From Tridacna crocea (Eukaryota; Mollusca; Bivalvia; Cardiida; Cardiidae), in the NCBI GenBank assembly GCA_943736015.1, contig OX031057.1:43362501-43426500 (forward strand): a DNA stretch of 64,000 nt. The letters are read 5' to 3'. Positions 3,077 to 64,000 of this stretch are shown piece after piece. Positions within the stretch are counted from its first letter, which is position 1, and the number at the start of each line of letters is the position of its first letter. A program made the position numbers and the translations under genes. Below the pieces are notes generated by a model. It was not told where the DNA came from and made no database searches. It worked only from the letters and a program-made list of their open reading frames with translations.

Positions 3077-3302
3077 TTAACCCATTACCACATGATCCCT
3101 ACTTTTGACGACCCTGTGAAAGAAGCCTGTAGAAGACATTGTGGGAAAAGGAGAAAATGCTGGTAACCAACATTTTCTCCTTTTCCCACAATGTTTTCTA
3201 CCCTTCACAAAAATTTCAAATTCTCAGTCACTTTTATTTTGTTGTCTGCAAATGCTTTCTATTTAGACAAACCTAAAAATTTGTCGTATGGTAATGAGTT
3301 AT
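3077..3302 (+). mobile_element. TTAA-hairpin MITE, full length
   Basis: Left end TTAACCCATTACCACATG; right end GGTAATGAGTTAT, with the last TTAA base mutated. The core at about 3133-3198 is a near-perfect palindrome centred on GGTAACC. Orientation is called + when the ...ACGACCC... side is on the left. Confidence 0.9.
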
Positions 3303-3624
3303 TATACAAAGTCACTTCACTATTTTTGCTTTGAAAGTACAGTTCACAACTACAGTCGACTTTGCTGCGGGTACATTTCAAGATCAAAATGCAGTAAACA
3401 TGGACTGATCTTTTATTTATACTATCTGCTTTGCTGAAATCTTCCAAATTAAGCAACCTTGACATTGCAATTACTCAATTCTTTCTTCTAGACTGAAAAT
3501 ACCCATTTGGTTTACATTGTGCTCAAACGCTTAACTCTGTGACTGGACAACATATTTGACCCGACCAAATTGAAAGCATAAATTTTGGAGATGACAAATG
3601 TAGCACATAGGGTTGGATTTGATT

Positions 3625-3752
3625 TGATCTGAAATAGAGAAGAAAACATTGTGGGAAAAGAAGAAAATGCTGGTTACGAGCATTTTTCTTCTTTTCTCAC
3701 AGAGTTTCCAAAAGCCTTTGAAGTTGTGAAAGTTTGGGATTGTGTGGGAAAG
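3625..3752 (-). mobile_element. TTAA-hairpin MITE, partial
   Basis: Palindromic core (AAAAGAAGAAAATGCTGG and its complement) followed by the right flank GGGATTGTGTGGGAAAG. The left flank is missing. The arms both carry AAGAAG/CTTCTT, a symmetric variant of the usual AAGGAG/CTCCTT. Confidence 0.65.
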
Positions 3753-3801
3753 ACCTAACGAAACAAAATTTTGAAAGAATTAACCGAAGACAAAAAGCTG
3801 C

Positions 3802-4674
3802 TTAACTCTTTCCCACACCATCCCTAGTTTTAACAATCCTGAGGAACAAGCCTTTTTAAACTAGAGGCGCTTGAGCGCCTGTATTGCTCCACAGGCCTGA
3901 TTTTTCTGTAATGGTGAAGAGAAGTTTTTAACAATTACCATTCATTCCTGCATTTTAGGTCACTAAAGAAAAAAAGCTATGAAAAGAAGAAAATAATAGT
4001 AACCTGCATTTTCTTAGTTTTACACAATAATTTCTACCCTTTTTGATACAAGTTTTACTAATTTGAAGAAATCAAAACGAATAGTTTGAGAGAAGAAATT
4101 TCTCAAAGATTTTAGTTTATACCATAAAAGGAAAATGAGTCTCCCATAAAAGCCATGTTTTTTGACAGATCTTTTTTTTTAAGGAATTCTGTAGACCTCT
4201 ATCTAAGGAACATACCTGCAAAAAAATAATGCTATCCAATTAGCGGTTTGGGAGGAGAAGATTTTTAAAGGTTTTTTACTTTGGTTGCCATGGCAACCAG
4301 AATTATTCATTGAACACAATTATTTGAAGGAATTTGAAAGAGGACCACCTAAGGAACATTCCTGTGAAATTTGGTAAAAATCCAGTCAATAGTTTCTGAG
4401 GAGAATTTTTTTAAAGAGAAAGCTTACGGACGCAAGCAAGCACAAACAGACGGACACACTTCGGACACAACACCATGACAATAGCTCGCTGGCCTTCGGC
4501 CAGTGGAGCTAAAAACATTGTGGGACAAGAAGAAAATACCTGCGTTTTCTTCTTTTCCTATGTTTTCTACCCTATAATAGGCAGAAATTATCATTTCAGC
4601 TACACTGAATATGTTATCTGCTGATGCTTTGAATTTGGTCTTGTCCAGAATTGTGTTGTTTGGTAAAGAGTTAA
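3802..4674 (+). mobile_element. TTAA-hairpin MITE split by another element
   Basis: The left part (3802-3858) starts TTAACTCTTTCCCACACC. The rest (about 4513-4674) resumes at AAACATTGTGGGACAAG and ends GGTAAAGAGTTAA. Between them sits the 0.65-kb element at about 3860-4512, which inserted at the T-rich step just outside the palindrome. Confidence 0.8.
3860..4512 (-). mobile_element. Hairpin-ended tandem-type element (CTCCACTGG family)
   Basis: Read on the - strand it starts TAGCTCCACTGGCCGAAGG, has a CGGACA-rich stretch, contains GGTTGCCATGGCAACC-like text, and ends in the hairpin GGCGCTCAAGCGCC followed by TCTAGTTT. It has the same start as the element at 45876-47541. A hairpin followed by CTAG-T resembles a Helitron 3' end, but no 5' TC start or coding part was seen. 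Confidence 0.6.
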
Positions 4675-4895
4675 CTCGTTATCAAACAACAAAATTTTAG
4701 GTTTGTCCAAATCGAAAGCATTTGCAGACAACAAAAGTGACTGAAAAATTGAAATTTGTTTTGTGAAGGGTAGAAAACATTTTGGAAAAAAGGAGAAAAT
4801 GCTGGTTACCAGCATTTTCTCCTTTTCCCACGATGTTTTCTAAAGGCTTCTTTCACAGGGTCGTCAAAAGTAGGGATTTTGTGGTAATGGGTTAA
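4671..4895 (-). mobile_element. TTAA-hairpin MITE, full length
   Basis: It shares its left TTAA with the copy before it, so the two abut tail to tail. Right end GTGGTAATGGGTTAA. Core about 4784-4850, centred on GGTTACC as expected for this orientation. Confidence 0.9.
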
Positions 4896-5059
4896 ATGGT
4901 GATTTCTTGTTGAAGGAGAGGAAACGTAGGAAAATAGGAGGTAACGATGGTTGTTGCACTATTTTCAATAGCCTTCTTTCTGGGTCCAACTTAAGAAAGA
5001 AAAATCGATTGTTTGACACAAGGTCGAGTATACTCCAAGCAAGTATTACTGATCTACGT

Positions 5060-5250
5060 CTTTTATTCTAGCTCATAGGGGGTACTGCATGGCTTACTGA
5101 TATATTGTGGGACTTGAAACCTGGAGAACTAAGTTTGAGCCTCACTGAGAGAATTGGCTTTTTGGTGAGAGTGCCCTTGAGCAGGACACTTCAGAGCCCT
5201 ATCCTAGTAATGGTGAAATCAAGGCCATACATAGTGATGTGGCTGTCACT
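5060..5250 (+). repeat. tRNA-derived SINE-like element
   Basis: It contains an A-box-like TCTAGCTCATAGGGGGTA and, about 50 bases on, a B-box-like AGTTTGAGCCTC. These are followed by CCTTGAGCAGGACACTTCAGAG, here given in two parts: CCTTGAGCAG and GACACTTCAGAG. This resembles the conserved central region of tRNA-derived SINEs in molluscs and other animals (from family knowledge). Ends not defined. Confidence 0.5.
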
Positions 5251-5724
5251 GCAACAATCATGACTAAAATAGTACATGTATTTTAAAAGTTAAAAATTGT
5301 TTAATCAGTTTTGAGCCACCTTGAACACATGAATGGAGAAAGAGGTAAATGCCTGTAACAATTACTGGCTATTTTTCACACTGTATTTCAACACCATTAC
5401 ACAATATGTTCTTTTTCTTCAAAGTCTAGTCTTTTGTATGATTGATACCTATTTGCTGAATCAAACAGCCTGTATGGAAAAAGGTAAGAATCATGGTTTG
5501 CAAAGAAAGAAAACAATATTGATTTATATATACCTTTTATCATACAAAACAGTGTTTTAACAAACCTCATAATATGCTTTTTTAGAAACATTTCCGGTAA
5601 CTAGCACTTTCTTTTTTTCCTAGTGTTTTCTACCTGTTAAAAGACTCATACCATAATTCTCTCTAACTTTGATATGTTGTCTGTAAATACGAGAAACATA
5701 TCCTCTTCTGACACTGATACTGAG

Positions 5725-6180
5725 AAATAGTGGATATTTGGTTTTTTTTTTTATGAAAGATCGAAATTTATTCCATCATGTGGACACCATCGATACTATT
5801 TTCACGAGTGGCACAGCCACGAGTGAAAATGTTACCGATGGTGTTCACGAGATGAAATAAATTACAATCTTTCACCAAAAAAAAAAAACAAATATTCTAT
5901 TTATTTCATGCTTTTAACCCTTTCTGGGAGGAGCTTTGTCAAAATTCAGTACAATTCTTTTCCCTTATTCCCCGCGGCGTACCCCTCCCGCATAGCAACA
6001 TTACGTCAAGCGCGAGAAATGTAAGGTATATGACATCATATTTCCCATCTGGTTGTTAGGCACGCGCAATTTACCTAGGCAACAAGAACGTGAAAATTGG
6101 TATTTTCACTGGTGGTACCAGTGTAAGATCGAAAAATATTTTCACTGCTATTTCTGGATATCCTACCGGAAAGCATGAAA
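5725..6180. mobile_element. Fold-back element with a ~120-bp hairpin
   Basis: Bases about 5756-5876 form an imperfect hairpin: GAAAGATCGAAATTTATT...ACTCGTGGCTGT read from either end, with arms of about 55 bases. Outside it AGAAATAG (5725) and CTATTTCT (about 6150) are inverted. No ORF. The family is not recognised. Confidence 0.5.
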
Positions 6181-6225
6181 TAAAGATTTTTACTTCACTA
6201 GCCTGACAAAACAAGCGGACAACAT

Positions 6226-6409: not shown

Positions 6410-6645
6410 TTAACCATTTTCCATTCCCAACTTATAACAACCCTGAGGAAAGAGCCCTTTGAAAACATTGTGGGAAAAGGAGAAAATGCTGGTAACCAGC
6501 ATTTTCTCCTTTTCCCACAATGTTTTCTAACCTTTCAAAATAATAATCCTGATTTGTGCAATACTGAATTTTTTTTTTGTCTGCAAATGCTTCAATTTGG
6601 AAATTTGGACAAGTCTAATTTTTTTTATATTTAGTGACCAGTTAA
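6410..6645 (+). mobile_element. TTAA-hairpin MITE in MRPS2 3' UTR, perfect core
   Basis: TTAA ends at 6410 and 6642. The core 6461-6527 is a perfect palindrome of 67 bases: two 33-base arms around one central A. The element ends 8 bases beyond the MRPS2 stop codon, so the hairpin is probably part of the MRPS2 3' UTR. Confidence 0.92.
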
Positions 6646-6652
6646 ATGGCCC

Positions 6653-7617
6653 TTAATTTTTCGTTTTTTCATCTTTTGTTGATTCTTTTTTTGTTATGTC
6701 ATCCTCTTTTTCAACAGTATCTGACAACCATTGCTCCACAAAAATGTTTCTGTTTTCGTCTCTGATTTCACCTTTGGCAGAATCTACGTCTCCATCTACG
6801 TCTAATCCAGTATTATTCAATGTCTCTGGCTCGGTCAAAATGTTTTCCTCTTGCTTAGCATTTTCATCTTTTACTTCTACCTTTCCATCTTCTTTGTCAT
6901 CTACATTTAATGACACTTTTGTTTCGGAAGAATTATCTACTGCTTCTGATACTTCAAAATCCTCTTCTACCAACCCATCTTCAAATCGTTTCTTTTTACC
7001 AAGAATAATTGCTTTTTCAAACAATTGCAGATAATACATAAGGGAATCTACTGTGTCATCATTTCCTGGTATGGGATATGATATTAACCTTGGGTCGCAA
7101 TTTGTGTCCACAACACCAACAGTTGGAATCAGTAGTTTTGAACATTCTGTAATACCTGGATGCATTTCAAACACATTGTCAAGTGTATTAAGGAAAATGC
7201 AAAGATCTGGTAATCTTGGAGCAGTTTTAAACATTTTAGAACAATTGGTAAACAATCCTTCGTGCCAATGTCTGCAGTGTGCATACTCCTTCACTCTTAC
7301 TGCAGTCTTCTCTACCTCCGGCATGATGATACGATTCTTACTTACGATTAAGATTATTCCATCTCTGTAAGCCGTGTGAGACACAAAATTCAAGGCATCT
7401 TGGAAGAGAGAAAGAGTTTTATCTAAATCTATAATGTCCACATCAAATCTCGTCCCAAAGATATAGGGGGCCATAAAAGGATCTCTGCACCCCTTGTGAT
7501 GTCCAAAATGAACCCGTTTTTTGAATAAACTTTCTACGTTCACCAATTTATGTACATTGAAATAATCAGGATGCTTCAGAACTTGCTTTGCTTTGTCTAT
7601 TTCCATCTGAGAGTCGC
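6653..7617 (-). CDS. MRPS2: MRPS2 exon 3 (uS2 domain and C-terminal tail)
   Basis: Acceptor tttatttcag just above 7617. The exon starts by completing a Gly codon, reads DSQMEIDKAKQVL and continues to the TAA stop at 6655-6653. It carries the uS2 domain and the acidic tail (SLNVDDKEDGKVEVKDE). The ATG at 7606 is internal, not the start. Confidence 0.93.
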
Positions 7618-11559: not shown

Positions 11560-11773
11560 AGCCCTTTCACCAGACAACAAAATTTTAGCCTCGTCCAGAG
11601 CCTTAGAATATGCATGCAGACCACTCACAAAATTTGATTTGAATAAAATAAAATATCTCTTAGGTTAGAAAATATTGTACAAAAAGGAAAAAAAAATGCT
11701 GGTTACCTTCTATGCTTTCTAGAGGTGTCTTTCTCTGGTCATTAAAATTTGGGTTTCCTGTGGTAAAGGATCA
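11560..11773 (-). mobile_element. Old TTAA-hairpin MITE shared by both duplicates
   Basis: Degenerate copy (CCAGACAACAAAATTTTAGCC ... CCTGTGGTAAAGG). The same copy lies at about 21218-21635 in duplicate B, where a younger MITE (21300-21511) is inserted into it. It therefore predates the duplication. Confidence 0.7.
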
Positions 11774-12353
11774 AGCTTGCGAAATACATGTATCAAAAGA
11801 CAAATCATTTAATTTTGATTCAATTGATAGAGGTTGTCAATTTAACCTGTTTATTCTGTCTGCCTACAAAATAAAGAGTCAAGCTTACATATATCAAAAT
11901 ATCAAAGGACAAAATCAAGACGTTTTCTGTTTTTTGCTGCTTTTGATTAAATAATGTTGTAAATATTAATTGCAATTATCATGTATAAGAAGACAGACGA
12001 AATTGTGAAAATTTAATGGTCTAAGGGAGAAAACCCATACTTACTACACTCTTTATTATAACAGAGTCGCGTCCCTTACACATCTGAACTGGCTAAAACC
12101 GAAGACGAATAAAAAATATGGTATATCTTAAAGTCTGTAAAGACCGTCCGTATACAAACGATTTCTTTCTCAGATTTGTGATTAATTGTGTTATTTATTT
12201 TTGTAATGAAAGGTATTGAATTTAATGTATTGTGATCAACAGGTCCGAATTTTTTCACTACATTACACAAAGAATTCAGAACATTTAAAAAAACGTACAT
12301 GGTTTTTGCCTACCCAGCCGGTTATCTCCCTTGCATCTCATCATTGAAATGTA

Positions 12354-19157: not shown

Positions 19158-19173
19158 TATATATATATATATC
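19158..19173. repeat. (AT)n microsatellite
   Basis: Short run of AT dinucleotides in the duplicated segment. The partner is shorter at about 24726. Confidence 0.8.
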
Positions 19174-57400: not shown

Positions 57401-60400
57401 CTAAGTCACTAGGTCATATCTTAGAAAACCTCTAGAGCTAAATTTTCACTCCAGTACTTTTGAAAGATGGTAAAATGTCTTGATCCAGTGTAAAAATGAG
57501 TCACATTAGGTCAAAAACTAGGTCACCAGGTCATATCTTTGACGGACTTTGTGTATTCTTCAGAAAGTTTGTCATTATATCTAGGAAAAGATTGGAAATA
57601 GGTCATGTATGGTCAACTGCCTCAGGTGAGTGACTTCGGGCTCTCTTGTTTCTTTCTTTTTCGGTAATTTTTCTGCTTGTCAAAGAATCGGTATACCTCA
57701 TGATTCAGTCGAATGTTAGACAAAATGGAAGTTTTAATGGGTCCATAATTATACGTATGATGACTATCCATATTGTCATGGGTCACAGAGATGCATTATG
57801 TCAGAGCATGACTCGGAACAAGTCGTACGAAAGTGTGACAGAAGTTTACTCTGAACTCATTACTAAACGACAAAATTTTAGGGTTGTCCAAATTGAAAGC
57901 ATTTGCAGACGACAAAATAAAAGTGACTGGAAATTTGTTTTGTGAAGGGTAGAAAACATTGTGGGAAAAGGAGAAAATGCTGGTTACCAGCGTTTTCTCC
58001 TTTTCTCACAATGTTTTCTAAAGGCTTCATTCTCAGGGTCATCAAAAGTAGGGAATGTGTGGTAATGGGTTAAACTTTGTAACTCTGAATCTGGATGTAA
58101 TTCCGTATGAAGACATTGTAAAGCTAGATCATATTGCATAGAACCTGCACCGGACATTGCCCCAACATGTTGCATTGTACTGATTAAGTCATCATATAAT
58201 TATGGACCCTTAAAATGTCTGACGGCTTCAAAAATTGACAGACTTGAAAATTGACCATAGCAAACAGTTTCATCCCAGGTCAGCCTGCACACTCATTGTA
58301 GGTTGTTTTGGTTCAATACTTTTTTGAAGACACATCACATCCCCTTTTCACAGAGTATGACTATATGAATACTGTTCTCTGCACATTTGATTCTAGGGAT
58401 TTACTATAATTCTAGAATGTACATCATCAAAATGTTGAAAACTGGAACATGAAAGTTTCTATGATATGTCTTGCAACACACGAAAAGAGGCATTTGGACA
58501 ATTGTGTAAAGTGTTGTCCCAGATGAGCCTGCACAGTCTGTGCAGGCTAATCCAAGATGGCACTTTACGACTACATTAGATTTTTGCTGCAGTAACCTTG
58601 CGCAAAATAGAAAAATTACATAAAAACAAAAGGTGTCGTTTTGGATTAGCCTGCATAGAGTGTTCAGGCTGATTAGAGACATCACTGCATGCAAATGCCC
58701 CTTTTTCACGTGTTGCAGGCAATGAAAGGTATATAAATCATGTAGCATCTGCTAGCTGCTGGTTAATTGCTGAATCAGGTATAACTAAAATGGTGTTGCT
58801 TGAGTTAAGAAATTTGATGTTTTGATGTAAGAATTACATTGCATGAATTGATTTCTTGTTATATGTGTGTGCTTATATAGTAAAATTACGTGTTTGTTGC
58901 TAAAATCAGTCATAAAAGCATATTAACTTTGACCCTTCCTCCTTTCTTATACTTTATGTATCTTCAGATTTACATATACTTAAGACTAAGCAATACAAGT
59001 TTCAGGTACATATGGAAGGAAAGGAAATCAGCATTTGCAGAAAATAGAAAAGGCCTATTTATTGCAATTAAGAAAGCTCTCCATTTGAAGCAAAATTTGG
59101 GATGGTATAGATCAAAGATCAGACTCTATGTTTCATGCAATCTGATCTCAGTCTGCTTTGCTCTCAGAAGCAACTCCAGATCAAAAGGGTTTTAAGGGCT
59201 TCAAAAGATTAAAATCCTGAAAAGTGCCAGTGAAAATATGCAGGAAAGGATTTTAAGAAGTGAGATTAACATGAAAACATGCTTTTTTGACTGGTTTAAG
59301 TTAGCTGTTTGGTGTTTGAACATGTTCAGTTTACTTGTGAAATTTATCTGAGTCACACTCTGTAAAAAGAAGCACTAATACATCTGCAAAAAAATATTGG
59401 TTTATGTCGGCCTGCATAGTTGTGGAGGCTTATATGGGCCAAAACTTTTTGCTGTCTTTAAATCTTTGTTATATGTCAAAGGACCTGTCTACCTCATAAT
59501 TCTGTTTGTTGTTGGGCATTGTAGATTTTAGGGATCAGTAATTATGGGATGACTTGACTGGTTAACTGTGTCACGGAGATATATTATATCCCTAATACCT
59601 GTGAGTGCTGTACATATCAAAATGGCTGGTAAATAATATACTACTCAAAATTTGCTAGGGATCACCCTAAAAGATTCACCCTAAATCTGTATGTGGCATG
59701 TATCATGTATGGTTTTACAATATGTTACATTGCTATAGTGATCAGTAAAAGGACCAGTGGAAATGGATCTTTAACCCTATACCTCAAATGCCTAAAGATA
59801 CTGAGAAAGAAGCCTTTGGAAAACACTGTTGGAAAAGGAGAAAATGCTGGGCACCAGCATTTTCTCCTTTTCCAACAATGTTTTCTACCCCGTGACAGAC
59901 AGCGTAGTGCATGTTGCATATAGTTTTTGGTCAGCAAATGCTTTCAACTTGGACAAATAAAAGAGTTAATGCAAAACTGTTGTAACATATAAACCTATAC
60001 AGAAATATGTAAGTGATCCCTATCAAAGTGTGAGTGGTATCAGTGTACAGCTAATGGATAACTGCAAAAAGTGCCTTAATTGTTTTGAAATCAGACCTGT
60101 ACATTAACATGAGAATATATTCTTTTTCTTTCCAGAAGTAAAATCCAAATGATAGAAATTTTATAGTTGCTTTTGTATGGAAAGCCGTAGACAGTGTAGA
60201 TCAAAGATCTGACTGCTTTTTTATGCAGTCTGATCTTTGCTCTATATTGACTGAAACGGCAACTGAAGCTGTGACAGACACTTTGCTTGATGGTACCTCT
60301 TCGCAAGCCAAGGCTGACGATTTACTACGCTACTCTACCCTTGGCGGATCGAGCTTGATTTTTACATTCCCCCAATATGCTTTTTCATTGGATGCAGCCA

Positions 60401-61475
60401 GCTCTAACTGCAACAAATGAAATCGCTCATAGAATTCCATCTTTGATAAAAATAGAACAAGGTCACTACCTTTCGAATAGAAGGTAAACATTGAAACCCA
60501 TATGGATGTCTGCTTATCGCTTCATGTGTATTCATAAGCGGTTTGTAAAATTATATTTCATTGGCTTTTAGAAATATGATGCAAATGGGGGTAATAACCA
60601 GCATCCTGTAGAGGGCCTATCGCAGGAATCTTGAAATCGGTCTCAATCAGCCAAGGTAATATCCACGTAGAGATGGTAACCTTGGCTTGCAAAGATGGAT
60701 GGTAAACAAATCAAACTATTTAAATTTGTTGCTTCTGTCATGTCTTTAAATAGGTGTGCTAGATTCATTATTTGGTTTATTTGTATCACTTTCAAATTTG
60801 TCCTATGTCGACTGATGCTTTTGATTTGAAAGAGTATAGAATTTGTTGTTTCGTAAAGAGTTAAATCTTTTCACAGTAACAAAATTTAAACCTGTTCAAA
60901 TTGAAAGCATTTACATAAAATATGCCTATGTTTTGAAAGGCTTGAAAACATTAAATTTTCTCATCTACCATGATGTTTTCTAAAGTTTTATTCCTGAAAA
61001 AAAAAAGGGGGAATGTTTAGAAAATAATTTAAAATTTAAATTCCATGCTTAATTCAAAACATGAGGTATCAACTCTTCACCAAATGAACAAATTCCAGAC
61101 CGTTCAAATTAAGAGCAATTGCAGACAACGAATTAGATGTTACTTAAACCATGAAATTTGCCTTTCATAGGTTTGAAAACATTGTGGGAAAAGGAGAAAA
61201 TGCTGGTTACCAGCATTTTCTCTTTTTCTCACAATGTTTTCAATGGCTACCTTCCTCAGCATCGTTAACTATTAGGATTGTGTGGTAGAGGGTTTATTAT
61301 GACTGTCCATGTATTAATGATAACAGCTGTCCTGTATATATATATATCATTTTGTTATGTAAATTATCAACAATCTAATGTTCATATCACAGATGATTTG
61401 AGGGCCGAAATGGATCATCTAAATGTAGGGCCAGAATTACTTTCCGAAATTTTTAAACGTTTCAAAGATAATATG
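27386..61475 (+). CDS. STKLD1: STKLD1-like kinase + ARM-repeat protein (gene overview, 3' end open)
   Basis: Eighteen exons plus one of two alternative exons join in one frame of about 635 residues. Order: kinase domain (exons 1-8, residues about 1-260), a short linker with a Ser/Lys-rich stretch (exons 9-10), then helical ARM-like repeats (exons 11-18) and a terminal helical exon. Kinase motifs seen: IGKGAQATVY (glycine loop), FLLKK (ATP-binding Lys), HRDVRPTN (catalytic loop), GDFGVA (metal-binding DFG), MAPE and DVWSLGC. Kinase plus ARM order and the region DLHKDNAEVVESVVTLL match vertebrate STKLD1 (SgK071), recalled from family knowledge. Substrate and role are unknown. Introns carry most MITEs in the window. 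Confidence 0.88.
27522..27608 (+). CDS. STKLD1: STKLD1-like exon 2: glycine loop and ATP-site Lys
   Basis: Acceptor ttccattgcag, donor GTATGA, 87 bases, phases 0/0. Reads IKEQIGKGAQATVYIVERQQ and ends FLLKK. GxGxxxxV is the nucleotide-binding loop. Confidence 0.9.
27738..29152. mobile_element. Fold-back-type element with GTTTCGACACC arrays
   Basis: Left end CAGTCGTTTCGACACCCGG, then TCATTTCGACAC and GGTCGTTTCGACCCCC. The right end (about 29020-29150) holds the same units inverted and closes CGGGTGTCAAAACGACTG. The interior has no ORF of note but contains the nested hairpin element at about 27870-28665. It lies in STKLD1-like intron 2. Confidence 0.8.
27870..28665. mobile_element. Nested long-hairpin MITE
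   Basis: Two ~190-base arms, TACCTTCAGTCTGAAGGTGT at the outer left and its complement at the outer right, continue inward through GATTTTACCCGCATCTTTT and AAATGATTAATCTT with few mismatches. About 400 bases lie between. CGAGACT on both outer sides (27864-27871 and 28660-28667) looks like a target duplication. Confidence 0.78.
29500..29715 (+). pseudogene. LINE reverse-transcriptase C-terminal remnant
   Basis: In one frame WNSLSSEIIETQTLNSFKNR LNELWHQDNKF reads to a TAG. This is the common end motif (WNSLP...LNSFKNRLD) of CR1/RTE-type LINE proteins. The upstream part has stops. It is a 5'-truncated fossil in STKLD1-like intron 2. Confidence 0.65.
29716..30617. other. STKLD1-like intron 2, rest
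   Basis: AT-rich, with no further gene or clear repeat seen. Confidence 0.4.
30618..30662 (+). CDS. STKLD1: STKLD1-like exon 3
   Basis: 45 bases, phases 0/0, VECYDECEANKAFKE. Continues from LKK as KKVECYDECEANKA, the start of helix C in this family. Confidence 0.88.
30698..30888 (+). mobile_element. TTAA-hairpin MITE, diverged with matched arms
   Basis: GATAGAAGTAGAAAATGCAG pairs with AATTTTCTACTTCTC. TAGAAG/CTTCTA differs from consensus on both arms. It lies 36 bases after exon 3. Confidence 0.65.
31294..31321. repeat. Perfect 28-bp palindrome
   Basis: ATACTGTAGCATGA joined to its own reverse complement, with no spacer. Not part of the TTAA family. Confidence 0.85.
31348..31452 (+). repeat. 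57-base-period tandem duplication
   Basis: A 48-base stretch starting ATTTTGGTACTTCCTAAATT occurs at 31348-31395 and again without change at 31405-31452. Confidence 0.9.
31615..31740 (-). mobile_element. TTAA-hairpin MITE, decayed
   Basis: GGAAACATTTAGAAAAAGGG, then TGTGTGGTAAAGTGTTAG. Arms largely lost. Ends 42 bases before exon 4. Confidence 0.5.
31782..31856 (+). CDS. STKLD1: STKLD1-like exon 4
   Basis: 75 bases, phases 0/0: STALQDLQHVYVSGYKEFFV then LWEKE. It corresponds to LQH...YxEFF of other kinases of the group. Joining straight to exon 3 keeps the usual length. Confidence 0.88.
32001..32205 (-). mobile_element. TTAA-hairpin MITE
   Basis: Left TTAA at 32001. Core about 32104-32172 with two arm changes. 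The right TIR is worn. Confidence 0.8.
32233..32442 (+). mobile_element. TTAA-hairpin MITE
   Basis: Right end CTGGTAAAGGGTTAA (32439-32442). The left end lacks the first ~20 bases. It ends 40 bases before exon 5. Confidence 0.78.
32483..32587 (+). CDS. STKLD1: STKLD1-like exon 5: hinge
   Basis: 105 bases, phases 0/0: DSSVYICIVMDYFPHGTLGD and on to EVISEE. VMDYF is the hinge of the ATP pocket. Confidence 0.92.
33032..33102 (+). CDS. STKLD1: STKLD1-like exon 6: helix E to IIHR
   Basis: 71 bases, phase 0 in and 2 out: VIKQWLGQIIEALVYVHKKN then IIH(R). Confidence 0.92.
33208..33390 (+). mobile_element. TTAA-hairpin MITE, left arm deleted
   Basis: Left end TTAGCCCTTTACCAAACAA, right TTAA at 33387. 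Only the right arm (CATTTTCTCCTTTTACC) remains. Confidence 0.75.
33437..33650 (-). mobile_element. TTAA-hairpin MITE
   Basis: Left TTAA at 33437. Core about 33540-33607. The right end is lost after GGGATTGTGT. Confidence 0.82.
33839..34000 (+). mobile_element. TTAA-hairpin MITE, decayed
   Basis: TTAACCCTTCACATATAATC, short palindrome GGTGGTAACTACC, CCCACAACGTTTTCTAC. Confidence 0.55.
34165..34277 (+). CDS. STKLD1: STKLD1-like exon 7: catalytic loop and DFG
   Basis: 113 bases, completes Arg of HRD and reads DVRPTNIYLKEDGNLVVGDF then GVATIMGDAV. The catalytic Asp, the Asn and the DFG Asp are all present. The usual Lys of HRDxKxxN is Arg. Confidence 0.93.
34455..34655 (-). mobile_element. TTAA-hairpin MITE, worn ends
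   Basis: GAAAACATTTTGAGAAAAGG and partner arm around 34547-34611. Right flank GGATTGTGTAGTACAGGG. Confidence 0.7.
35200..35410 (-). mobile_element. TTAA-hairpin MITE, worn left end
   Basis: Core about 35290-35355. Right end TGATAAAGGGTTAA (35407-35410). Confidence 0.72.
35417..35645 (+). mobile_element. TTAA-hairpin MITE, full length, perfect core
   Basis: TTAA at 35417 and 35642. The core 35472-35538 is a perfect 67-base palindrome. Confidence 0.95.
36004..36354. mobile_element. Chimera of two opposed TTAA-hairpin MITEs
   Basis: Starts as a - copy (CAACTCATTACCAAACAAC ... CAGGGTCGTCAAAAGTAG). It switches near 36210 to the right half of a + copy (GTAACCAGCATTTTC ... GTGGTAAAGAGTTAA). Confidence 0.85.
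36440..36668 (+). mobile_element. TTAA-hairpin MITE, full length
   Basis: TTAA at 36440 and 36665. Core 36497-36563 with two mismatches. It ends 56 bases before exon 8. Confidence 0.92.
36725..36986 (+). CDS. STKLD1: STKLD1-like exon 8: APE and C-lobe
   Basis: 262 bases, the longest exon: SLNYMAPEVVQKGYSESSDV, WSLGCVLFEMV and on to MLNTVKRPTAV. Phases 2 in and 2 out. A MITE ends 56 bases upstream. Confidence 0.94.
37091..37319 (+). mobile_element. TTAA-hairpin MITE, full length
   Basis: Left TTAA at 37091; right end GTAATGAGTTGA (one base off TTAA). Arms diverged (CGTTTTGGGAAATGG). Confidence 0.85.
37340..37382. repeat. Perfect 20-base-arm hairpin (CAGCCTGCGCA type)
   Basis: GACTCATGTCAGCCTGCGCA, loop of three bases, then the exact complement. 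It starts a copy of the dispersed repeat also seen at 1280 and 59400. Confidence 0.85.
37436..37859. mobile_element. CACCAACC hairpin element split by a TTAA MITE
   Basis: Left arm 37436-37544 (CAAGCTTTCCTAAG ... CTTCTGATTGGATAAACC), right arm about 37767-37859 (CCAATCAAAGATTGTG ... GAATGGTAGGT). The TTAA MITE at 37545-37766 lies at the hairpin tip. Full relatives lie at 40879-41028 and 56343-56582. Confidence 0.78.
37545..37766 (+). mobile_element. TTAA-hairpin MITE nested in another element
   Basis: Left TTCA (mutated TTAA) and right TTAA at 37763. Core partly deleted. Confidence 0.82.
37861..37975 (+). repeat. CACCAACC element, left half
   Basis: GGGCCCGTATTCACCAACC, CATTCTTAAGAACG, and CTTCTGATTGGCTAAACC. 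The other arm is missing. Confidence 0.7.
38055..38325. repeat. Decayed hairpin repeat (relative of 58463)
   Basis: TGAAAAGAGGCATTCAGAC at the left, GGATTAGCCTGCAAGC hairpin, TGCAAATGTCTGAGTGCCCC at the right. Confidence 0.55.
38518..38627 (+). CDS. STKLD1: STKLD1-like exon 9: end of kinase domain, linker
   Basis: 110 bases: GLLSNNFIRSCVEMSDASQV then EKRKRLKSASTSRTDI. LLSNNFIRS corresponds to the last kinase helix. The basic/serine stretch is a linker. Confidence 0.88.
38648..38875 (+). mobile_element. TTAA-hairpin MITE, full length
   Basis: TTAA at 38648 and 38872. Core about 38703-38769: ACACTG pairs with CAGTGT (symmetric change), while GTAGG/CCCAC does not match. Starts 21 bases after exon 9. 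Confidence 0.92.
39029..39242 (-). mobile_element. TTAA-hairpin MITE, one arm altered
   Basis: Left TTAA at 39029; right end AAAGGGTTAG. The left outer arm is replaced by ATACATGTATAGG. Confidence 0.75.
39636..39862 (-). mobile_element. TTAA-hairpin MITE, perfect core, tandem pair
   Basis: TTAA at 39636 and 39859. The core 39741-39807 is a perfect palindrome. It shares 39859-39862 with the next copy. Confidence 0.95.
39859..40094 (-). mobile_element. TTAA-hairpin MITE, tandem pair, altered centre
   Basis: TTAA at 39859 and 40091. Outer arms ACACTGTGGG/CCCACAGTGT match each other; the inner left arm reads AAAGGGGAAAGGAGG instead of AAATGCTGG. Confidence 0.9.
40098..40290 (-). mobile_element. 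TTAA-hairpin MITE, decayed
   Basis: GTCCAAATCGACAACATTTAC, core AAAATGCTGATTACCAGC, right flank ATTGTGTGGTG. Ends shortly before exon 10. Confidence 0.65.
40319..40345 (+). CDS. STKLD1: STKLD1-like exon 10 (27-base microexon)
   Basis: cag acceptor, gtaagt donor, phases match both neighbours: (T)SEESEPGK. The acidic linker is short enough to be skipped in frame. A decayed MITE ends about 30 bases upstream. Confidence 0.7.
40433..40612 (-). mobile_element. TTAA-hairpin MITE in a CACCAACC element end
   Basis: The left TTAA (40433-40436) coincides with the CTTAAG of a CACCAACC element start (GGGCCTGTGTTAACCAAC at 40409). Core about 40493-40558. Confidence 0.68.
40622..40810 (-). mobile_element. 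TTAA-hairpin MITE, decayed
   Basis: CTCTTTATTAAGCAACAG, GGACTTGTCCAAATCC, GAGAAAATGCTGCATTTTT. Confidence 0.5.
40879..41028. mobile_element. CACCAACC hairpin element, ~150 bp
   Basis: GGGCACGTATTCACCAATC at the left and GGTTGGCAAATACGGGC at the right, inverted. Inside, CTTATTCTCCAAGG and AGAGTAAGAT pair loosely. Confidence 0.8.
41700..41928 (+). mobile_element. TTAA-hairpin MITE, full length
   Basis: TTAA at 41700 and 41925. Several arm mismatches (CTATGAAG). Same subfamily as 7694-7914 (GTGCCATTTGAACCACCATG). Confidence 0.88.
42108..42338 (-). mobile_element. TTAA-hairpin MITE, full length, variant flank
   Basis: TTAA at 42108 and 42335. Arms AAAAGAAGAAAATGCTAG / AGCATTTTCTTCTTTT match each other and differ from consensus. 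Confidence 0.85.
42419..42560 (+). CDS. STKLD1: STKLD1-like exon 11: first ARM-like helices
   Basis: 142 bases: PVPRNQGVLRVLEYLAHMID then YENCVRDALDYLLDLAKSDA. Amphipathic helices; start of the ARM-like part. Confidence 0.88.
42605..42841 (-). mobile_element. TTAA-hairpin MITE, full length
   Basis: TTAA at 42605 and 42838. Arms diverged independently (AAGAAGGAAAAAATG). Confidence 0.82.
42860..43055 (-). mobile_element. TTAA-hairpin MITE, decayed
   Basis: CAGATGACAAAATGTTAGGC, GTGGGAAAAGGAGAAAATGC; the right half is lost. Confidence 0.6.
43053..43268 (+). mobile_element. TTAA-hairpin MITE, internal 9-base loss
   Basis: Right TTAA at 43265. Core about 43106-43173 with one mismatch (ATTATGGG). 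CTGCAAATG is missing before CTTTCAATTTGG. Confidence 0.85.
43502..43736 (-). mobile_element. TTAA-hairpin MITE, full length
   Basis: TTAA at 43502 and 43733. Arms AAAGAAG/CTTCTTT symmetric. Confidence 0.9.
44174..44271 (+). CDS. STKLD1: STKLD1-like exon 12
   Basis: 98 bases: GKKLVAMAIKNNLPDKDIQV then YGCRVLNSLIMT. ARM-like helix pair. Donor GGTAACAA. Confidence 0.88.
44376..44475 (+). mobile_element. TTAA-hairpin MITE fragment
   Basis: TTTTTACAACCCTGAGAAAC, ATTGTGGGTACTAAAGGC, CCCACAATATTTTCTACC. A further trace precedes it at about 43960-44110. Confidence 0.5.
44527..44634. repeat. Unrelated ~48-base-arm hairpin
   Basis: ATCAAACCGCCATTTTCAAA ... GACGTT, loop GAAACAAGGAAAC, then AACGTCATTTCATTTGAAAA ... 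GGTTTGAT. Near-perfect arms with no similarity to the TTAA family. Confidence 0.85.
44706..44919 (-). mobile_element. TTAA-hairpin MITE with shortened arm
   Basis: Left TTAA at 44706. The arm ATTGTGGGAAAAATGCTGG lacks AGGAGAA; right end GTAAAGAGTTTAG. Confidence 0.78.
45165..45405. mobile_element. TTAA-hairpin MITE, decayed
   Basis: Core AGAGAAAAGGAGAAAATGCTG / CAGCATTTTCTTCTTTTCTC, with outer flanks GCATTTGCAGACTAC and GTTTTCTACC. No TTAA ends seen. Confidence 0.58.
45876..47541 (+). mobile_element. Tandem-unit element, 1.67 kb (CTCCACTGG family)
   Basis: Begins TTAGCTCCACTGGCCGAAGG and a (GTCC)n run at 45926-45963. It carries about five 165-base units (each with CCTAGGGCTACCAAATTT near 46166, 46330, 46497, 46663, 46828). 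It ends with the hairpin GGGCCATCATGGCCC and TCTTGTTTT. No ORF. The start is the same as in the element at 3860-4512. It lies in STKLD1-like intron 12. Confidence 0.8.
45926..45963 (+). repeat. (GTCC)n microsatellite
   Basis: About nine GTCC units inside the element above. Confidence 0.85.
47930..48040 (-). mobile_element. TTAA-hairpin MITE fragment
   Basis: AAGCATTTGCAGAATAG joins directly to ACCAGCATTTTCTCC: the left arm is deleted. Right flank TTGTGTGTTAAAGGG. Confidence 0.6.
48573..48634 (+). CDS. STKLD1: STKLD1-like exon 13
   Basis: 62 bases, ADSDDILFSHEVIAVIPLAM E, phase 1 in and 0 out. Preceded by the 4.3-kb intron that holds the tandem-unit element at 45876-47541. Confidence 0.85.
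49209..49436 (-). mobile_element. TTAA-hairpin MITE, full length
   Basis: TTAA at 49209 and 49433. The left arm is diverged (TTATAGGAGAAAGAG). Confidence 0.82.
49621..49687 (+). CDS. STKLD1: STKLD1-like exon 14
   Basis: 67 bases after a long poly-T tract and cag: HHVENAEVQLAAASLLMAMA AN. Typical ARM third helix. Confidence 0.9.
49719..49905 (-). mobile_element. TTAA-hairpin MITE, decayed
   Basis: GTAACTCTTTGCTAAGCAAC starts 32 bases after exon 14. TATAGAAAACAGAAAG; the rest is weak. Confidence 0.5.
50046..50255 (+). mobile_element. TTAA-hairpin MITE, worn right end
   Basis: Left TTAA at 50046. Core about 50107-50173. The right flank carries a partial duplication of TTGTTGTCTG. Confidence 0.82.
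50282..50410 (+). CDS. STKLD1: STKLD1-like exon 15: ARM repeat
   Basis: 129 bases, phases 1/1: VAGTLIGHFGGVHNILTALR ... STCLNAFWELTVH. One whole ARM repeat. A MITE ends within about 30 bases upstream. Confidence 0.92.
50492..50721 (-). mobile_element. TTAA-hairpin MITE, full length, weak arms
   Basis: TTAA at 50492 and 50718. Arms diverged (GACAAAAGGAGGAAATATTGG). Confidence 0.82.
50750..50930 (+). mobile_element. TTAA-hairpin MITE, decayed
   Basis: GGCTTTTGAAAACACTGTGG, ACGGAGAAAATGCTGC, GCAAATGCGTAGGC. Confidence 0.5.
50974..51191 (+). mobile_element. TTAA-hairpin MITE, core shortened
   Basis: Left CTAACCTGTTACCACACAA, right TTAA at 51188. The tip of the hairpin (CTGGTAACCAG) is deleted, leaving AAAATGCATTTGCTCC. 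Confidence 0.82.
51188..51615 (+). mobile_element. TTAA-hairpin MITE interrupted by another copy
   Basis: Outer copy: TTAAGCATTTACCACACAAC at the left, core 51245-51311, flank to GCTGCATTAA (51349). It resumes after 51552 with TTTGTTATCTGCAAATGC and ends GGTAAAGAGG. It shares its left TTAA with the copy before it. Confidence 0.85.
51346..51552 (+). mobile_element. TTAA-hairpin MITE nested inside another copy
   Basis: TTAA at 51346 and 51549. Removing it and one TTAA restores the outer copy's CTGCATTAATTTGTTATC. The left arm is partly deleted (CTTTGGAAAAGGAG). Confidence 0.92.
51612..51815 (+). mobile_element. TTAA-hairpin MITE, decayed
   Basis: GTAACCTTTTACCATAAACC, TTTTAACAACCTTAATG; arms weak. 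Confidence 0.5.
51832..52060 (-). mobile_element. TTAA-hairpin MITE, full length
   Basis: Left TTAA at 51832; right end GGTAATGGGATAA (one base changed). Left outer arm diverged (ACTTTGCTGAAAAAGG). Confidence 0.9.
52057..52287 (+). mobile_element. TTAA-hairpin MITE, abutting the previous copy
   Basis: It shares the altered ATAA at 52057-52060. Core about 52114-52180 (GTAGG / CCAAC). Right end GTGGTAAAGAGTAAG. It ends 54 bases before exon 16. Confidence 0.85.
52342..52470 (+). CDS. STKLD1: STKLD1-like exon 16: ARM repeat
   Basis: 129 bases, phases 1/1: NNVKIATEEKGIRDVCTVLK ... AEAACAAILALSLD. Same length and phase as exon 15. Confidence 0.92.
52518..52690 (+). mobile_element. TTAA-hairpin MITE, decayed
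   Basis: CAACCCTTTATAACAGTC, GACCTTGAGAAAGAAGGC, TACAATGTTTTCTACACC. Starts 47 bases after exon 16. Confidence 0.62.
52766..52949 (-). mobile_element. TTAA-hairpin MITE, core lost, tandem pair
   Basis: TTAA at 52766 and 52946. Flanks are consensus, but the core is replaced by about 90 unrelated bases. Confidence 0.82.
52946..53174 (-). mobile_element. TTAA-hairpin MITE, full length, tandem pair
   Basis: TTAA at 52946 and 53171. Core 53053-53119 with one mismatch. The centre reads GGTAACC, the form normally found in + copies. Confidence 0.94.
53343..53591 (+). mobile_element. TTAA-hairpin MITE, partly duplicated left arm
   Basis: ATAAACCCTTTACCACAC at the left, right TTAA at 53588. AGACTTTCAAAATTTC and GTTTTGAAAGC add about 20 bases before the core. 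Confidence 0.75.
53690..53790 (+). repeat. tRNA-derived SINE fragment
   Basis: GCATTGGTTATAGAATC (A-box region) and AGGTCCTACGTTCTACCCC (B-box region) in tRNA-like order and spacing. Confidence 0.45.
53929..54060 (+). CDS. STKLD1: STKLD1-like exon 17: ARM repeat
   Basis: 132 bases, phases 1/1: EENLELISQLDGVGLLVDAI ... KNACLALASLVEID. Confidence 0.92.
54380..54474 (+). mobile_element. TTAA-hairpin MITE fragment
   Basis: CAGGAACTAGAGAAAGAATGG, ACTGGTAAACTATTTTCTCC, CCCACGATCTTTTCTGCC (first given in full length 20: CAGGAACTAGAGAAAGAATG). Confidence 0.55.
54476..54700 (-). mobile_element. TTAA-hairpin MITE, full length
   Basis: Left end TTGAACCTTTTCCTAAATG, right TTAA at 54697. Centre GGTAACC although the flanks are in - orientation. 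One arm lost AGG (AAAAGAGACAATG). Confidence 0.88.
54903..55127 (+). mobile_element. TTAA-hairpin MITE, full length
   Basis: Left TTTTACCCATTACCACAC, right TTAA at 55124. Core 54959-55025 with two mismatches. Confidence 0.9.
55283..55405 (-). mobile_element. TTAA-hairpin MITE, left half
   Basis: GTCCAAATTGAAAGCATTTC through AAAATGTTGGTTACCAG. It stops at the hairpin tip. Confidence 0.68.
55490..55642 (+). CDS. STKLD1: STKLD1-like exon 18: ARM repeat
   Basis: 153 bases, phases 1/1: EESAYRVLTNEGPDNTHIAG ... DLHKDNAEVVESVVTLLMEL AEY. This is the part that most clearly resembles vertebrate STKLD1. Confidence 0.92.
56141..56220 (+). CDS. STKLD1: STKLD1-like exon 19a (alternative)
   Basis: 80 bases after cctctctcag, phase 1 in and 0 out: DDILIDLYYCRIDLPVEEIM KKFKRNE. 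Homologous to 61393-61475 (EIMKKFKRN / EIFKRFKDN). If intron sequence is retained, the frame stops after VRK at TAA, so it could also be a terminal exon. Confidence 0.8.
56343..56582. mobile_element. CACCAACC hairpin element with a 42-base arm duplication
   Basis: GGGTCTATATTCACCAACC and GGTTGGTGAATATGGACCC are inverted ends. CATTCTTAAGAAC pairs with GTTCTTAAGAATG. In the left arm TTCAAGATTTTCTAACTGTG is repeated (56390 and 56432). Confidence 0.88.
56646..57652 (+). mobile_element. Tandem-unit element, 1.0 kb (AGCTCATCTGAGC type)
   Basis: Begins TTAGCTCATCTGAGCACG with a GCTCAT...GTGAGC hairpin. It carries about six diverged 115-160-base units (GAGGCCACATTTTGAG, CATGTCGGGTCAAAAACTAGG style text) and ends CGGGCTCTCTTGTTTC. 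Start (TTAGCTC) and end (CTCTTGTTT) resemble the 45876-47541 element. In STKLD1-like intron 19. Confidence 0.75.
57852..58073 (-). mobile_element. TTAA-hairpin MITE, full length
   Basis: Left end TGAACTCATTACTAAACGAC, right TTAA at 58070. Core 57951-58017 with two mismatches. Confidence 0.92.
58463..58722. mobile_element. TIR element with AGCCTGCACAG hairpins
   Basis: TGCAACACACGAAAAGAGGC at the left, TTTTTCACGTGTTGCA at the right (inverted). Inside are GAGCCTGCACAG/CTGTGCAGGCT and GGATTAGCCTGCATAGAG. About 260 bases, no ORF. Decayed relatives at 20840 and 38055. Confidence 0.82.
59109..59160. repeat. GATCAGACTGCA-type hairpin
   Basis: AGATCAAAGATCAGACTC ... GCAATCTGATCTCAGTCTG; same family as 6226. 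Confidence 0.5.
59400..59620 (+). repeat. Dispersed repeat, relative of 1280-1600
   Basis: CGGCCTGCATAG, CAAAACTTTTTGCTGTC, ATGTCAAAGGACCTG, CACGGAGATATAT in the same order as in the other copies. Confidence 0.5.
59771..59969 (+). mobile_element. TTAA-hairpin MITE with matched arm changes
   Basis: TTAA at 59771 and 59966. Core about 59819-59885: GTTGGAAAAGG pairs with CCTTTTCCAAC; both arms differ from consensus GTGGG/CCCAC. Confidence 0.88.
60196..60246. repeat. GATCAGACTGCA-type hairpin
   Basis: TAGATCAAAGATCTGACTGC ... GCAGTCTGATCTTTGCTCTA. Confidence 0.6.
60775..61015. mobile_element. Two abutting TTAA-hairpin MITE halves
   Basis: Right half of a + copy to GTAAAGAGTTAA (60859-60862 region). 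Then a - copy from the same TTAA with only short arms (GAAAACATTAAATTTTCTC). Confidence 0.62.
61070..61297 (-). mobile_element. TTAA-hairpin MITE
   Basis: CAACTCTTCACCAAATGAAC at the left; core about 61173-61239 with two mismatches; right TGTGTGGTAGAGGGTTTA. It ends about 95 bases before exon 19b. Confidence 0.82.
61393..61475 (+). CDS. STKLD1: STKLD1-like exon 19b (alternative)
   Basis: 83 bases after atatcacag, phase 1 in and 0 out, donor GTAAGA: DDLRAEMDHLNVGPELLSEI FKRFKDNM. It takes the G left by exon 18. Spliced after 19a it would read ATG ATT TGA and stop. Later exons were not found before 64000. Confidence 0.82.
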
Positions 61476-61618: not shown

Positions 61619-61862
61619 TTAACTCATCACCACACAACAAGCCTGATTTGGACTTGTCGGACAACTAAAAATGTAGACTTTTTTAAAGCATTAATTTTGT
61701 AGATTGTGTTGCTCAATGATGGAATTTGTCTTTCGTAGGGTAGAAAACATTGTGAGAAAAGGAGAAAATGCTTGATACCAGCATTTTCCTCATTTTCCCA
61801 GAATGTTTTCAAAAGGCTTCTCCTTTGTGGTTAAAGCTCAAAATAGTGTGGTAAAGGGTTAA
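61619..61862 (-). mobile_element. TTAA-hairpin MITE, full length
   Basis: TTAA at 61619 and 61859. Left flank changed (CAAGCCTGATTTGGACTTG); the core has a one-base slip. Confidence 0.82.
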
Positions 61863-62024
61863 AGCACCTTTCAAAACTTGTGCTGCCTTCGCGGTTGATA
61901 TAAAGTTTAGGTGGCAAAAAACAAAACTTTAAACAAAATTGTTGATCCCCCTTAAACTGGGTCACCTAGACAACTTTCCTTGTAAAATACAGTTGTTCGA
62001 TAGAAAGTAAAATTTAATATGTGA

Positions 62025-62125
62025 GTACAGCTGAAACACTATGGCAAAATGAGAAATCTCTTTGTGCAAGCACTTTCTCCATTTGTTGTACAAGTGATTT
62101 CTCATTTGTTTCAGTGCTTTCAAAA
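62025..62125 (-). repeat. Variant hairpin related to the TTAA family core
   Basis: GAAACACTATGGCAAAATGA ... TCATTTGTTTCAGTGCTTTC, with a secondary palindrome GAGAAATC/GATTTCTC. Flanks not recognised. Confidence 0.4.
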
Positions 62126-62379
62126 GTGGTCTGCCTGAATGTTTCTAGCAAGTTATAAGCACTAGCCCTTACATTGCCATCTAACTGATATAAATATCTG
62201 AAACTACTTACAAAGGGACTCTGATGTGTGAATTTTAAGTTGTGTATTTCGGAACAGCAAACAGTTTATCAGATTGGACTGCACATTCTGTGCAATTTAG
62301 TTTTGATCTTCAGTGTTAGCAAAGGCAACTAAAGTTGTGGTTTTCACATTTAGGGCAGACTCTCATTCCTCTCTGAACC

Positions 62380-62590
62380 CTTAACCAGCTAACAAAAATT
62401 AAGACCTCTCCAAATTGCATGCATTTTTTTTTTCGAGGAGAAAGTATCTGAAAGATGGCTTGTGTCTCTGAAAGGGTTGAAAACTTTGTGAGACAAAGAG
62501 AAAATGCTGGTTACCTGCATTTTTGTTTTGTCCCAACAAGATTTGTTCCTCCTCAGGGTAGTTAAAGCATTGGAGCGTTTGATGAAGGGA
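62380..62590 (-). mobile_element. TTAA-hairpin MITE, decayed
   Basis: CCCTTAACCAGCTAACAAAA, GTTGAAAACTTTGTGAGAC, AAAATGCTGGTTACCTGC. Confidence 0.55.
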
Positions 62591-62842
62591 TACTTTTACC
62601 TTTCACCTACTTATATCACTTACCATGTTAGATAGTACACTGTCAGGTCTCCTGCCTCCTAACCTTTGTATAAGTACTTCTGGCTGCGTATTATGCACTT
62701 AAATTAGCTGCTTCAAAGTGCTGGAGTATTTTGGTTTGGACATATAGTTCGGGTTGCAACATTCGTTTTTTGTTATCAAATATTTCGACCTGTTGCATGA
62801 AACGAGTGCTCTGCCAATGCCATGTTGTCTCATTCGGCCTGT

Positions 62843-63070
62843 TCACCCTTTCCTACATGACAACTTTTGATGACCCTTGGAAAGAAGCCTTTAGAAAACA
62901 TTGTAGGAAGAGGAGAAAATGCTGGTAAGCAACATTTTCTCCATATCCCACAATATTTTCTACCCTATCAATAAACAATTGCACTATTTGAGCCACATTG
63001 AAAGTGTTGTCTGCTAATTAATGCTTTCAGTTTGGGCAGGGCTAAAATTTTGTCGTCTGGTAAAGGGTTA
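62843..63070 (+). mobile_element. TTAA-hairpin MITE
   Basis: CACCCTTTCCTACATGAC at the left, CTGGTAAAGGGTTA at the right. Arms worn (GTAGGAAGAGG / CCATATCCCAC). Confidence 0.8.
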
Positions 63071-63624
63071 TGATCTTCAGCTATGCATCTATGTCAGGGG
63101 CAGCTGGTCCACAGTGTACATGTATTTTTCTATAGATATACAGTTTTGATTGCAGCATTTCTTTATGGAACATGACAAGGATACCTCTCTATTACCTGCA
63201 ACCAATGCTCAGGGTATAAGGTATTGCCTAGGCCTGGTGGTCAATTAGTTTCTGAAATTGTACATGTTTTGCCTTTGTCTTGCCGAAAGATGGATGTTTG
63301 TCGGAGATTTCAAACTTTGTACAGTATAAAGTATTTTAATAGATTTTGCCTTTTTTAACGAAATTATTACCCCATAAATTATATGCCAAGTAAATACAAC
63401 AGAATTAATATTTATAGCATGACAGATAAATTGAAAATGTTGGGAATTCAGGCCACATTGGGGAGAATTTTTGTGCATTCAATATCAACTAATGCAGTTC
63501 TAAGAGCATTCAACTGCACATTCTGTTCAGCCTCATCTTACCCTACACTGTAAATAATAGCAAATAGACTTGCGATAGCCCACAAGGGGTTTACCTCTTC
63601 CTTAGATAGTTGTTTTTACCTGTA

Positions 63625-63848
63625 CCCTTCCCTAAACAACAAAATTGAGGACTTTCTCAATTCCAAAGTTTGCAAACAACAACTGTAATGTGGCTCAAAT
63701 GGGAAAAACTATCATTTAAAGGGAACAAAATATTGTTGGACAAGGAGAAAATGCTGGTTTCCAGCATTTTCTCTTTTTCCAACAATGTATGAAAAAACAT
63801 TTTTCTCCGAGTCCTTCCAGGTTAGGGTTGTGGGGTAAGGGGATAACA
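63625..63848 (-). mobile_element. TTAA-hairpin MITE with matched arm changes
   Basis: CCCTTCCCTAAACAACAAAA at the left, GTGGGGTAAGGGGATAA at the right. ATTGTTGG pairs with CCAACAAT. Confidence 0.75.
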
Positions 63849-63951
63849 CTTAAGCAGATTACAAAATTTTATACTAGTTTTTGTGGACAAATTAAAATAT
63901 GGCTGAAAGTAGGAGTTTACCAGAGCTGGTAATTCTCCTCTTGTATTTTTG

Positions 63952-64000
63952 AACCCTTTACCCAACAATCCCGAGTTTTAACCACCCCAGGAAAGAATCC
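63952..64000 (+). mobile_element. TTAA-hairpin MITE, cut by window end
   Basis: GAACCCTTTACCCAACAATC and GAGTTTTAACCACCCCAGG: left flank of a + copy. Confidence 0.75.

Follow-up and report, generated by a model that had tools for sequence, protein, structure and literature searches.

Terminal inverted repeats (TIRs) of piggyBac transposons are reported to start most often with CCCTT, and also with CCCTC, CCCAT or CACTA (PMC10813416). Palindromes of 19 bp sit within the piggyBac transposon ends and are described as binding the C-terminal domain of the transposase (PMC11707139). Termini of Kolobok elements are given as 5'-RR...YY-3' (PMC9587614). A stretch of 64,000 nucleotides from the bivalve Tridacna crocea (assembly GCA_943736015.1, contig OX031057.1, positions 43,362,501 to 43,426,500 of the forward strand; the window) was analysed for a repeated element that ends at TTAA and encloses a central palindrome of 67 bp. 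Very probably, these elements form a large, long-lived family of miniature inverted-repeat transposable elements (MITEs), which a transposase of piggyBac type mobilises in trans and which inserts at TTAA. Such an enzyme would recognise the short imperfect ends and insert the element by cut-and-paste.

A MITE profile was built from 32 copies and hits were counted as non-overlapping at E<=0.01. The window contains 116 hits (copies or fragments), which occupy 19,433 bp (30.4%); no match was obtained in five Markov shuffles or in the reversed window. Some copies are counted as two hits, e.g. 10243-10375 and 10377-10495. The initial annotation had reported about 70 copies over 3077 to 64000. The family is real, the count was too low, and hits are also present upstream of that span at 569-720, 780-918, 1020-1192 and 2814-2963. 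When 32 near-full copies were aligned with 25 bp of flank, similarity ended at TTAA on both sides. The consensus of subfamily A is 229 bp long with the core palindrome at 56-122. Its left end is TTAACCC(T/A)TTACCACACAATCC... and its right end ...GTCGTTTGGTAA(A/T)GAGTTAA, the termini being imperfect inverted repeats of the form CYCWTTACCAMAC. The window has 102 TIR-like ends (TTAACYCWTTACCA, at most 2 mismatches), whereas shuffles average 3.6, and 101 of these ends fall no more than 12 bases from the end of a MITE hit.

The same element was scored in a genome sample of twenty 10-kb stretches (200 kb) at preset positions on contigs C1-C8, 8 of the 31 contigs of a genome of 1,048,827,098 bases. 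TTAA is present at the left end of 28, the right end of 33 and both ends of 23 of the 45 near-full window copies, and at 65, 65 and 55, respectively, of the 85 near-full sample copies. Outside the copies with TTAA at both ends (n=76) no base exceeds 51% at any position, indicating that the flanking DNA is unrelated. In window and sample together, 146 hits are in minus and 143 in plus orientation. Divergence from the A consensus ranges from 6 to 37% across the 45 near-full window copies, which suggests long-lasting activity. Being short and non-coding, with inverted ends, target duplication and high copy number, the elements are MITEs. The earlier description of TTAA ends, inverted-end form, asymmetric flanks, two common orientations and MITE status holds in the window and the sample, and the consensus starts and ends at TTAA beyond the window as well.

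The palindromes that had been called perfect, at 6461-6527, 35472-35538 and 39741-39807, are exact, with the reverse complement matched at 66 of 67 positions and an odd centre base that cannot pair. When folded as DNA, one core with TA borders gives a 34-bp stem of -39.1 kcal/mol (z -15). TA is found on both sides of 10 of 32 gap-free cores. At a lenient threshold 88 core loci were identified, 65 with both MITE flanks, 18 with one and 5 with none. Of the five flankless loci, which would be candidates for independent mobility of the core, the strongest (20197) is a copy of subfamily B. The copies and palindromes of the window are as follows.

3078-3301, plus: near-full MITE copy
4671-4894, minus: near-full MITE copy; TTAA common with fragment 4511-4674
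6412-6644, plus: near-full MITE copy
6461-6527, no strand: 67-bp palindrome, 66/67 positions
7694-7914, plus: near-full MITE copy
8398-8610, plus: near-full diverged MITE copy
8613-8831, plus: near-full MITE copy; TTAA common with copy 8398-8610
8927-9103, minus: near-full MITE copy, internal loss
9547-9769, minus: near-full MITE copy
10243-10495, minus: MITE copy, internal insertion, two hits
11564-11771, minus: near-full diverged MITE copy
20092-20275, no strand: B-type copy; end TTAACCCTTTACCCC at 20092; core palindrome 20197-20267, four paired changes
21300-21510, minus: near-full MITE copy
21696-21925, minus: near-full MITE copy
22635-22862, plus: near-full MITE copy
24895-25121, minus: near-full MITE copy
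25743-25968, minus: near-full MITE copy
25966-26193, minus: near-full MITE copy; TTAA common with copy 25743-25968
31528-31738, minus: near-full diverged MITE copy
35418-35645, plus: near-full MITE copy, guide copy; TTAA at 35417
35472-35538, no strand: 67-bp palindrome, 66/67; 71 bp with flanking TA..TA
36441-36668, plus: near-full MITE copy; ends 26 bp before start of kinase-domain match
37091-37318, plus: near-full MITE copy
37547-37767, plus: near-full MITE copy
38649-38875, plus: near-full MITE copy
39636-39861, minus: near-full MITE copy
39741-39807, no strand: 67-bp palindrome, 66/67
39859-40093, minus: near-full MITE copy; TTAA common with copy 39636-39861
41701-41928, plus: near-full MITE copy
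42108-42337, minus: near-full MITE copy
42606-42840, minus: near-full MITE copy
43057-43268, plus: near-full MITE copy
43505-43735, minus: near-full MITE copy
49209-49435, minus: near-full MITE copy
50492-50720, minus: near-full MITE copy
50974-51191, plus: near-full MITE copy; TTAA common with fragment 51189-51344
51349-51552, plus: near-full MITE copy
51832-52059, minus: near-full MITE copy
52058-52284, plus: near-full MITE copy; abuts copy 51832-52059, junction now ATAA
52766-52948, minus: near-full MITE copy, internal loss
52946-53173, minus: near-full MITE copy; TTAA common with copy 52766-52948
53345-53590, plus: near-full MITE copy
54476-54699, minus: near-full MITE copy
54905-55127, plus: near-full MITE copy
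57853-58072, minus: near-full MITE copy
61070-61295, minus: near-full MITE copy
61619-61862, minus: near-full MITE copy
62375-62591, minus: near-full diverged MITE copy
62843-63070, plus: near-full MITE copy
63624-63845, minus: near-full MITE copy
569-63997, scattered, no strand: remaining MITE hits of the 116, truncated or diverged fragments

Outside the hits, 353 TTAA sites are seen (363 in the joined outside sequence) against 480 expected from dinucleotides. The scarcity is as if insertions consumed their targets, and the target may be a countable resource.

To relate the ends to a transposase, end signatures and transposase loci were compared. The 5' end of the MITE is CCCTT or CCCAT; the 3' end is CTCTT or CTCAT in subfamily A and CCCTT in subfamily B. 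Both the TTAA duplication and the CCC-type ends of piggyBac elements are present. The genome carries 118 matches to PF13843 (piggyBac transposase), 26 of them nearly complete and stop-free. Among 15 of the 118 loci, TTAA-CCC inverted ends were clear at seven and doubtful at one, and no clear pair was found at the other seven (L029, L032, L034, L035, L038, L039 and L042), although one end of a known kind is retained at each of L035 and L039. The clear ends are CCCTATCCTCCAC at L030, CCCATTTATGCCT at L031, CCCTTTCAGYGC at L036, CCCTWGTCATGC at L037 and L040, and TTAA-CCCTTTATATAC at L033 and L043, which are piggyBac elements of 2765 bp. At L041 the ends CCCTCTAGA are doubtful, and another pair scored higher. 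At none of these 15 loci were the TIRs of the MITE recognised as the ends of the piggyBac element. Several piggyBac families retain transposase frames free of stops, and their copies resemble each other closely, e.g. L033, L035, L043, L037 and L040. A Pfam scan of the window covered six open reading frames and 20 out of a set of 94 stretches without a stop (60 amino acids or longer); the set excludes those mostly inside MITE hits, the long interspersed nuclear element (LINE) or the S2 frame. No transposase was detected among the scanned frames; the matches were to ribosomal S2, the LINE and a kinase exon, with ATG27 as the single one that fell short of its cut-off. From ends and target we infer piggyBac as the best assignment, short of a demonstration. 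The partner element may be among the loci beyond the 15, may be decayed or may be of another kind.

The abundance of the family was estimated in two ways. The genome sample gave 173 hits, 85 of them near-full, and its reversed control none. The MITE share of the sample is 15.0% (bootstrap 9.3-21.7%; 0 to 53% per stretch), or 15.1% with the three subfamily profiles together, and area sampling yields 0.91 million copies (0.56-1.30 million). Over the whole genome, 7,213 exact 23-bp 5' ends, 261,851 exact 23-bp A cores and 31,151 exact B cores were counted, with 0 for each in the reversed control; a viral contig collection had 0 matches to exact cores. The density of the exact A core is 0.250/kb in the genome, 0.25/kb in the window and 0.155/kb in the 20 samples. 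The sample therefore probably underestimates abundance, and the two estimates differ because the samples hold fewer exact cores than the genome. Calibrated on the cores, the sample by itself points to 1.46 million copies and 253 Mb (95% range 1.14-2.28 million copies and 196-394 Mb), and sample plus window to 1.61 million copies and 276 Mb. The calculation takes the number of hits per exact core to be constant across the genome, and its copy count is slightly inflated by split copies. On these figures the copy number appears to be at least about a million, and the family's share of the chromosomes to lie somewhere between a sixth and a quarter. The density that the initial annotation took as unusual for a single window is a property of the whole genome (exact 23-bp core, 0.25/kb in the window versus 0.2497/kb), and by exact-core density the window is ordinary within its genome. 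Copies are not confined to the locus; they are dispersed over contigs C1-C18.

The subfamilies were compared to follow the palindrome. A different inner core is present in ten hits of window and sample. For B, the consensus of 6 copies has 229 bp and a core placed as in A; that of C, from two copies, has 257 bp. A and B agree at 57/66 arm positions; in the flanks they agree at 19/39 positions on the 5' side and at 31/89 on the 3' side, the latter being near random. Five arm pairs differ: four are changed on both sides and still paired, and one is changed on one side, at which the B copies split 3 to 3. The four complementary swaps of B are GC to CG and AT to TA, with no G-U intermediates. A and C differ at three arm pairs, all on both sides and 0 one-sided. 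From one subfamily to another the palindrome is retained and the sequence outside it is replaced. In 289 aligned hits, 152 complementary double changes were counted versus 24-35 in slid controls, in which partners were shifted by 1-3 columns; 104 of the 152 fall in 12 recurrent types. The 32 gap-free window cores have 12 double-changed cells versus a shuffled mean of 2.9. The first count of doubles within the window, in which inherited and new changes are mixed, was 50 versus a permutation mean of 22.8 and 12-19 in slid controls. The core is less diverged than the flank in 191 of the 196 copies with enough of both. Genome-wide, A/B hybrid cores occur at 22 sites versus 261,851 A/A and 31,151 B/B, and a core altered at pair 86 alone, in both arms, at 32 sites. 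The unpaired centre base is often C or G in the B core and is C or G in only 4 of 100 A cores, counted in the first places listed.

Decay of resident copies was counted after excluding the 62 of 289 hits that carry any recurrent paired type. In 38 young A copies, 85 pairs are one-sided or unpaired versus 2 paired doubles. On this count young resident copies show little arm correction, although a small paired excess is left among the hits as a whole. Divergence in these copies is 10.6% in the flanks and 4.2% in the core; as the flanks are the more diverged, sources vary even within the youngest group. Arm mismatch is 0.167 versus 0.185 expected for independent arms (63 of the 116 window hits). 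Since the subfamilies stay paired and the residents decay mostly independently, integrity of the palindrome seems to be enforced in the multiplying copies, by selection or by arm copying. The palindrome, we conclude, persists chiefly along the line of descent of copies that multiply.

Copies that continue to multiply would thus either require an intact palindrome or have it restored. The palindrome is undecayed in each of the three subfamily consensuses, and the preferred reading is therefore that it may be a cis-acting part of amplification, either as a hairpin or cruciform or as a symmetrical binding site for a protein dimer. It could, for instance, fold out at replication and steer gap repair. 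Arm sequence and pairing would then be conserved, and all between core and TIRs would be free to change. We tentatively propose that such a module lets a cut-and-paste element reach about a million copies or more. If true, a fifth of a genome would be due to a hairpin unexplained by any transposase gene.

Several results count against the interpretation given so far. The abundance estimates disagree, exact cores being at 0.155 per kb in the sample versus 0.250 in the genome. The initial annotation had suggested a search for an autonomous piggyBac-like element with the same TIRs; piggyBac transposases are present, and none of the 15 loci examined out of 118 was seen to be bounded by the MITE TIR CCCTTTACC. 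The closest piggyBac-element end among them has only CCCTTTA in common with the MITE. In the 32 gap-free cores, slid controls are near-equal (12 cells versus up to 10), and 31 disjoint copy pairs give a modest result, with 20 changes both-paired and 37 both-other versus 36-49 both-changed when slid. Scarcity of hybrids is expected anyway from the common descent of the arms, so that only the paired state of the sources counts. The 227 hits without recurrent types still have 30 complementary doubles versus 10-22 slid, which could come from unrecognised subfamilies or from limited copying between arms at rest. In three of four age classes arm mismatch falls a little short of the value for independent arms, and in one it equals it.

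The palindrome could also be unselected, one arm being copied onto the other by template switching or hairpin mismatch repair, mainly at replication or movement, with fresh perfect palindromes as founders. This is the main rival, possible though less likely than not. It accounts for paired changes without selection, including the swaps of B that lack G-U intermediates, and the rarity of A/B hybrids, the form changed only at pair 86 and the small paired excess in hits without recurrent types are in its favour. Young residents, however, are hardly corrected, and arm copying alone leaves unexplained the conservation of the arms above the flanks (57/66 versus 31/89). A cis role and arm copying both predict perfect palindromes at new insertions. 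That the hairpin acts as RNA, as a small-RNA precursor or through an effect at the transcript level, and that this rather than transposition keeps the arms paired, is improbable. The RNA fold of a whole copy is a very stable hairpin (z -10.3), at least one MITE copy ends beside an exon, and the Made1 palindromes with 37-bp arms are reported to have given human mir-548 (PMC1784062); but resident copies largely decay without paired repair, and Rfam gave 0 matches in the window.

For the movement of the family, a Kolobok-type transposase is very unlikely on the end signatures. TTAA is duplicated by Kolobok too, and the T2-MITEs of Xenopus are an example of long-lived MITEs with this target (PMC6004289). 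The termini of the present MITE, however, are YY...RR in both A and B, the reverse of the RR...YY published for Kolobok, and the earlier preference for piggyBac-type ends is borne out by these signatures, the assignment remaining inferential. End-to-end copies (9 junctions in the window, 7 with one common intact TTAA) could be taken for a local tandem or satellite array, or for an assembly artefact of fold-back reads. Copies on C1-C18, balanced orientation, the lack of conserved outside sequence and hits in 17 of the 20 preset samples with the A profile (18 with three profiles) refute this as the main explanation, and its likelihood is negligible. The 9 junctions may reflect either a preference of the element for its own ends or random use of TTAA.

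The MITE copies lie in eukaryotic DNA. A ribosomal protein S2 frame, presumably of the mitochondrial type, is at 6653-7606. An uninterrupted LINE frame of 1149 amino acids (14279-17728) has endonuclease and reverse transcriptase domains, and near it are stretches that recur in the window (11924-12341 with 23500-23912; 18664-19337 with 24261-24893). A kinase exon lies within 36661-36987, the match starting 26 bp past the end of the MITE copy 36441-36668. A tandem array at 46158-46960 has a 165-bp unit in 4.9 copies. Fold-back DNA is common beyond the MITE: a second, separate family, e.g. ATTCACCAACCATTCTTAAGAAC, is found at 56342-56584, 37768-37967, 40932-41026 and 37439-37541, and other inverted-repeat stretches at 5734-5895, 44524-44634, 37330-37392 and 58472-58717.

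It is not settled how cut-and-paste MITEs become so numerous. Here a genome of 1 Gb carries about a million copies, or more, of one family, with natural variants that differ in their flanks and have a similar paired core, and these subfamily variants open a way to look for the part of a MITE responsible for amplification. No description of the family was found in the literature searched, most subscription journals and repeat databases lying outside the search, and a search of paper texts for six element strings gave only unrelated matches. A repeat database may well hold the family under some name.

Among known systems, the REPINs of bacteria are similar in being mobile hairpin units with compensatory changes on two sides (PMC3116915); unlike the present MITE they are bacterial, RAYT-associated and without TTAA ends. 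Made1 (hsa-mir-548), a mariner-related MITE, is a near-perfect palindrome with arms of 37 bp, versus 33-35 bp here. As described, the palindrome of Made1 is its TIRs, whereas that of the present MITE is internal, with separate ends and flanks. The T2-MITE family of Xenopus (Kolobok) resembles it in TTAA target, many subfamilies and very long life, but has AGGRR ends versus CYCWTTACC. The piggyBac superfamily and its MITEs, such as mPok1 and mPok2 of Pokey (PMC4912750), have the TTAA target and the short imperfect TIR in common with it, together with CCCTT or CCCAT starts, and the host genome is rich in piggyBac transposase frames. The 67-bp central palindrome and a copy number of the order of a million are unlike piggyBac as described, and no autonomous partner was recognised at the 15 loci examined. 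The 19-bp palindromes of piggyBac may offer a lead to what a symmetrical site might do. By this comparison the family behaves as a piggyBac MITE and is probably one.

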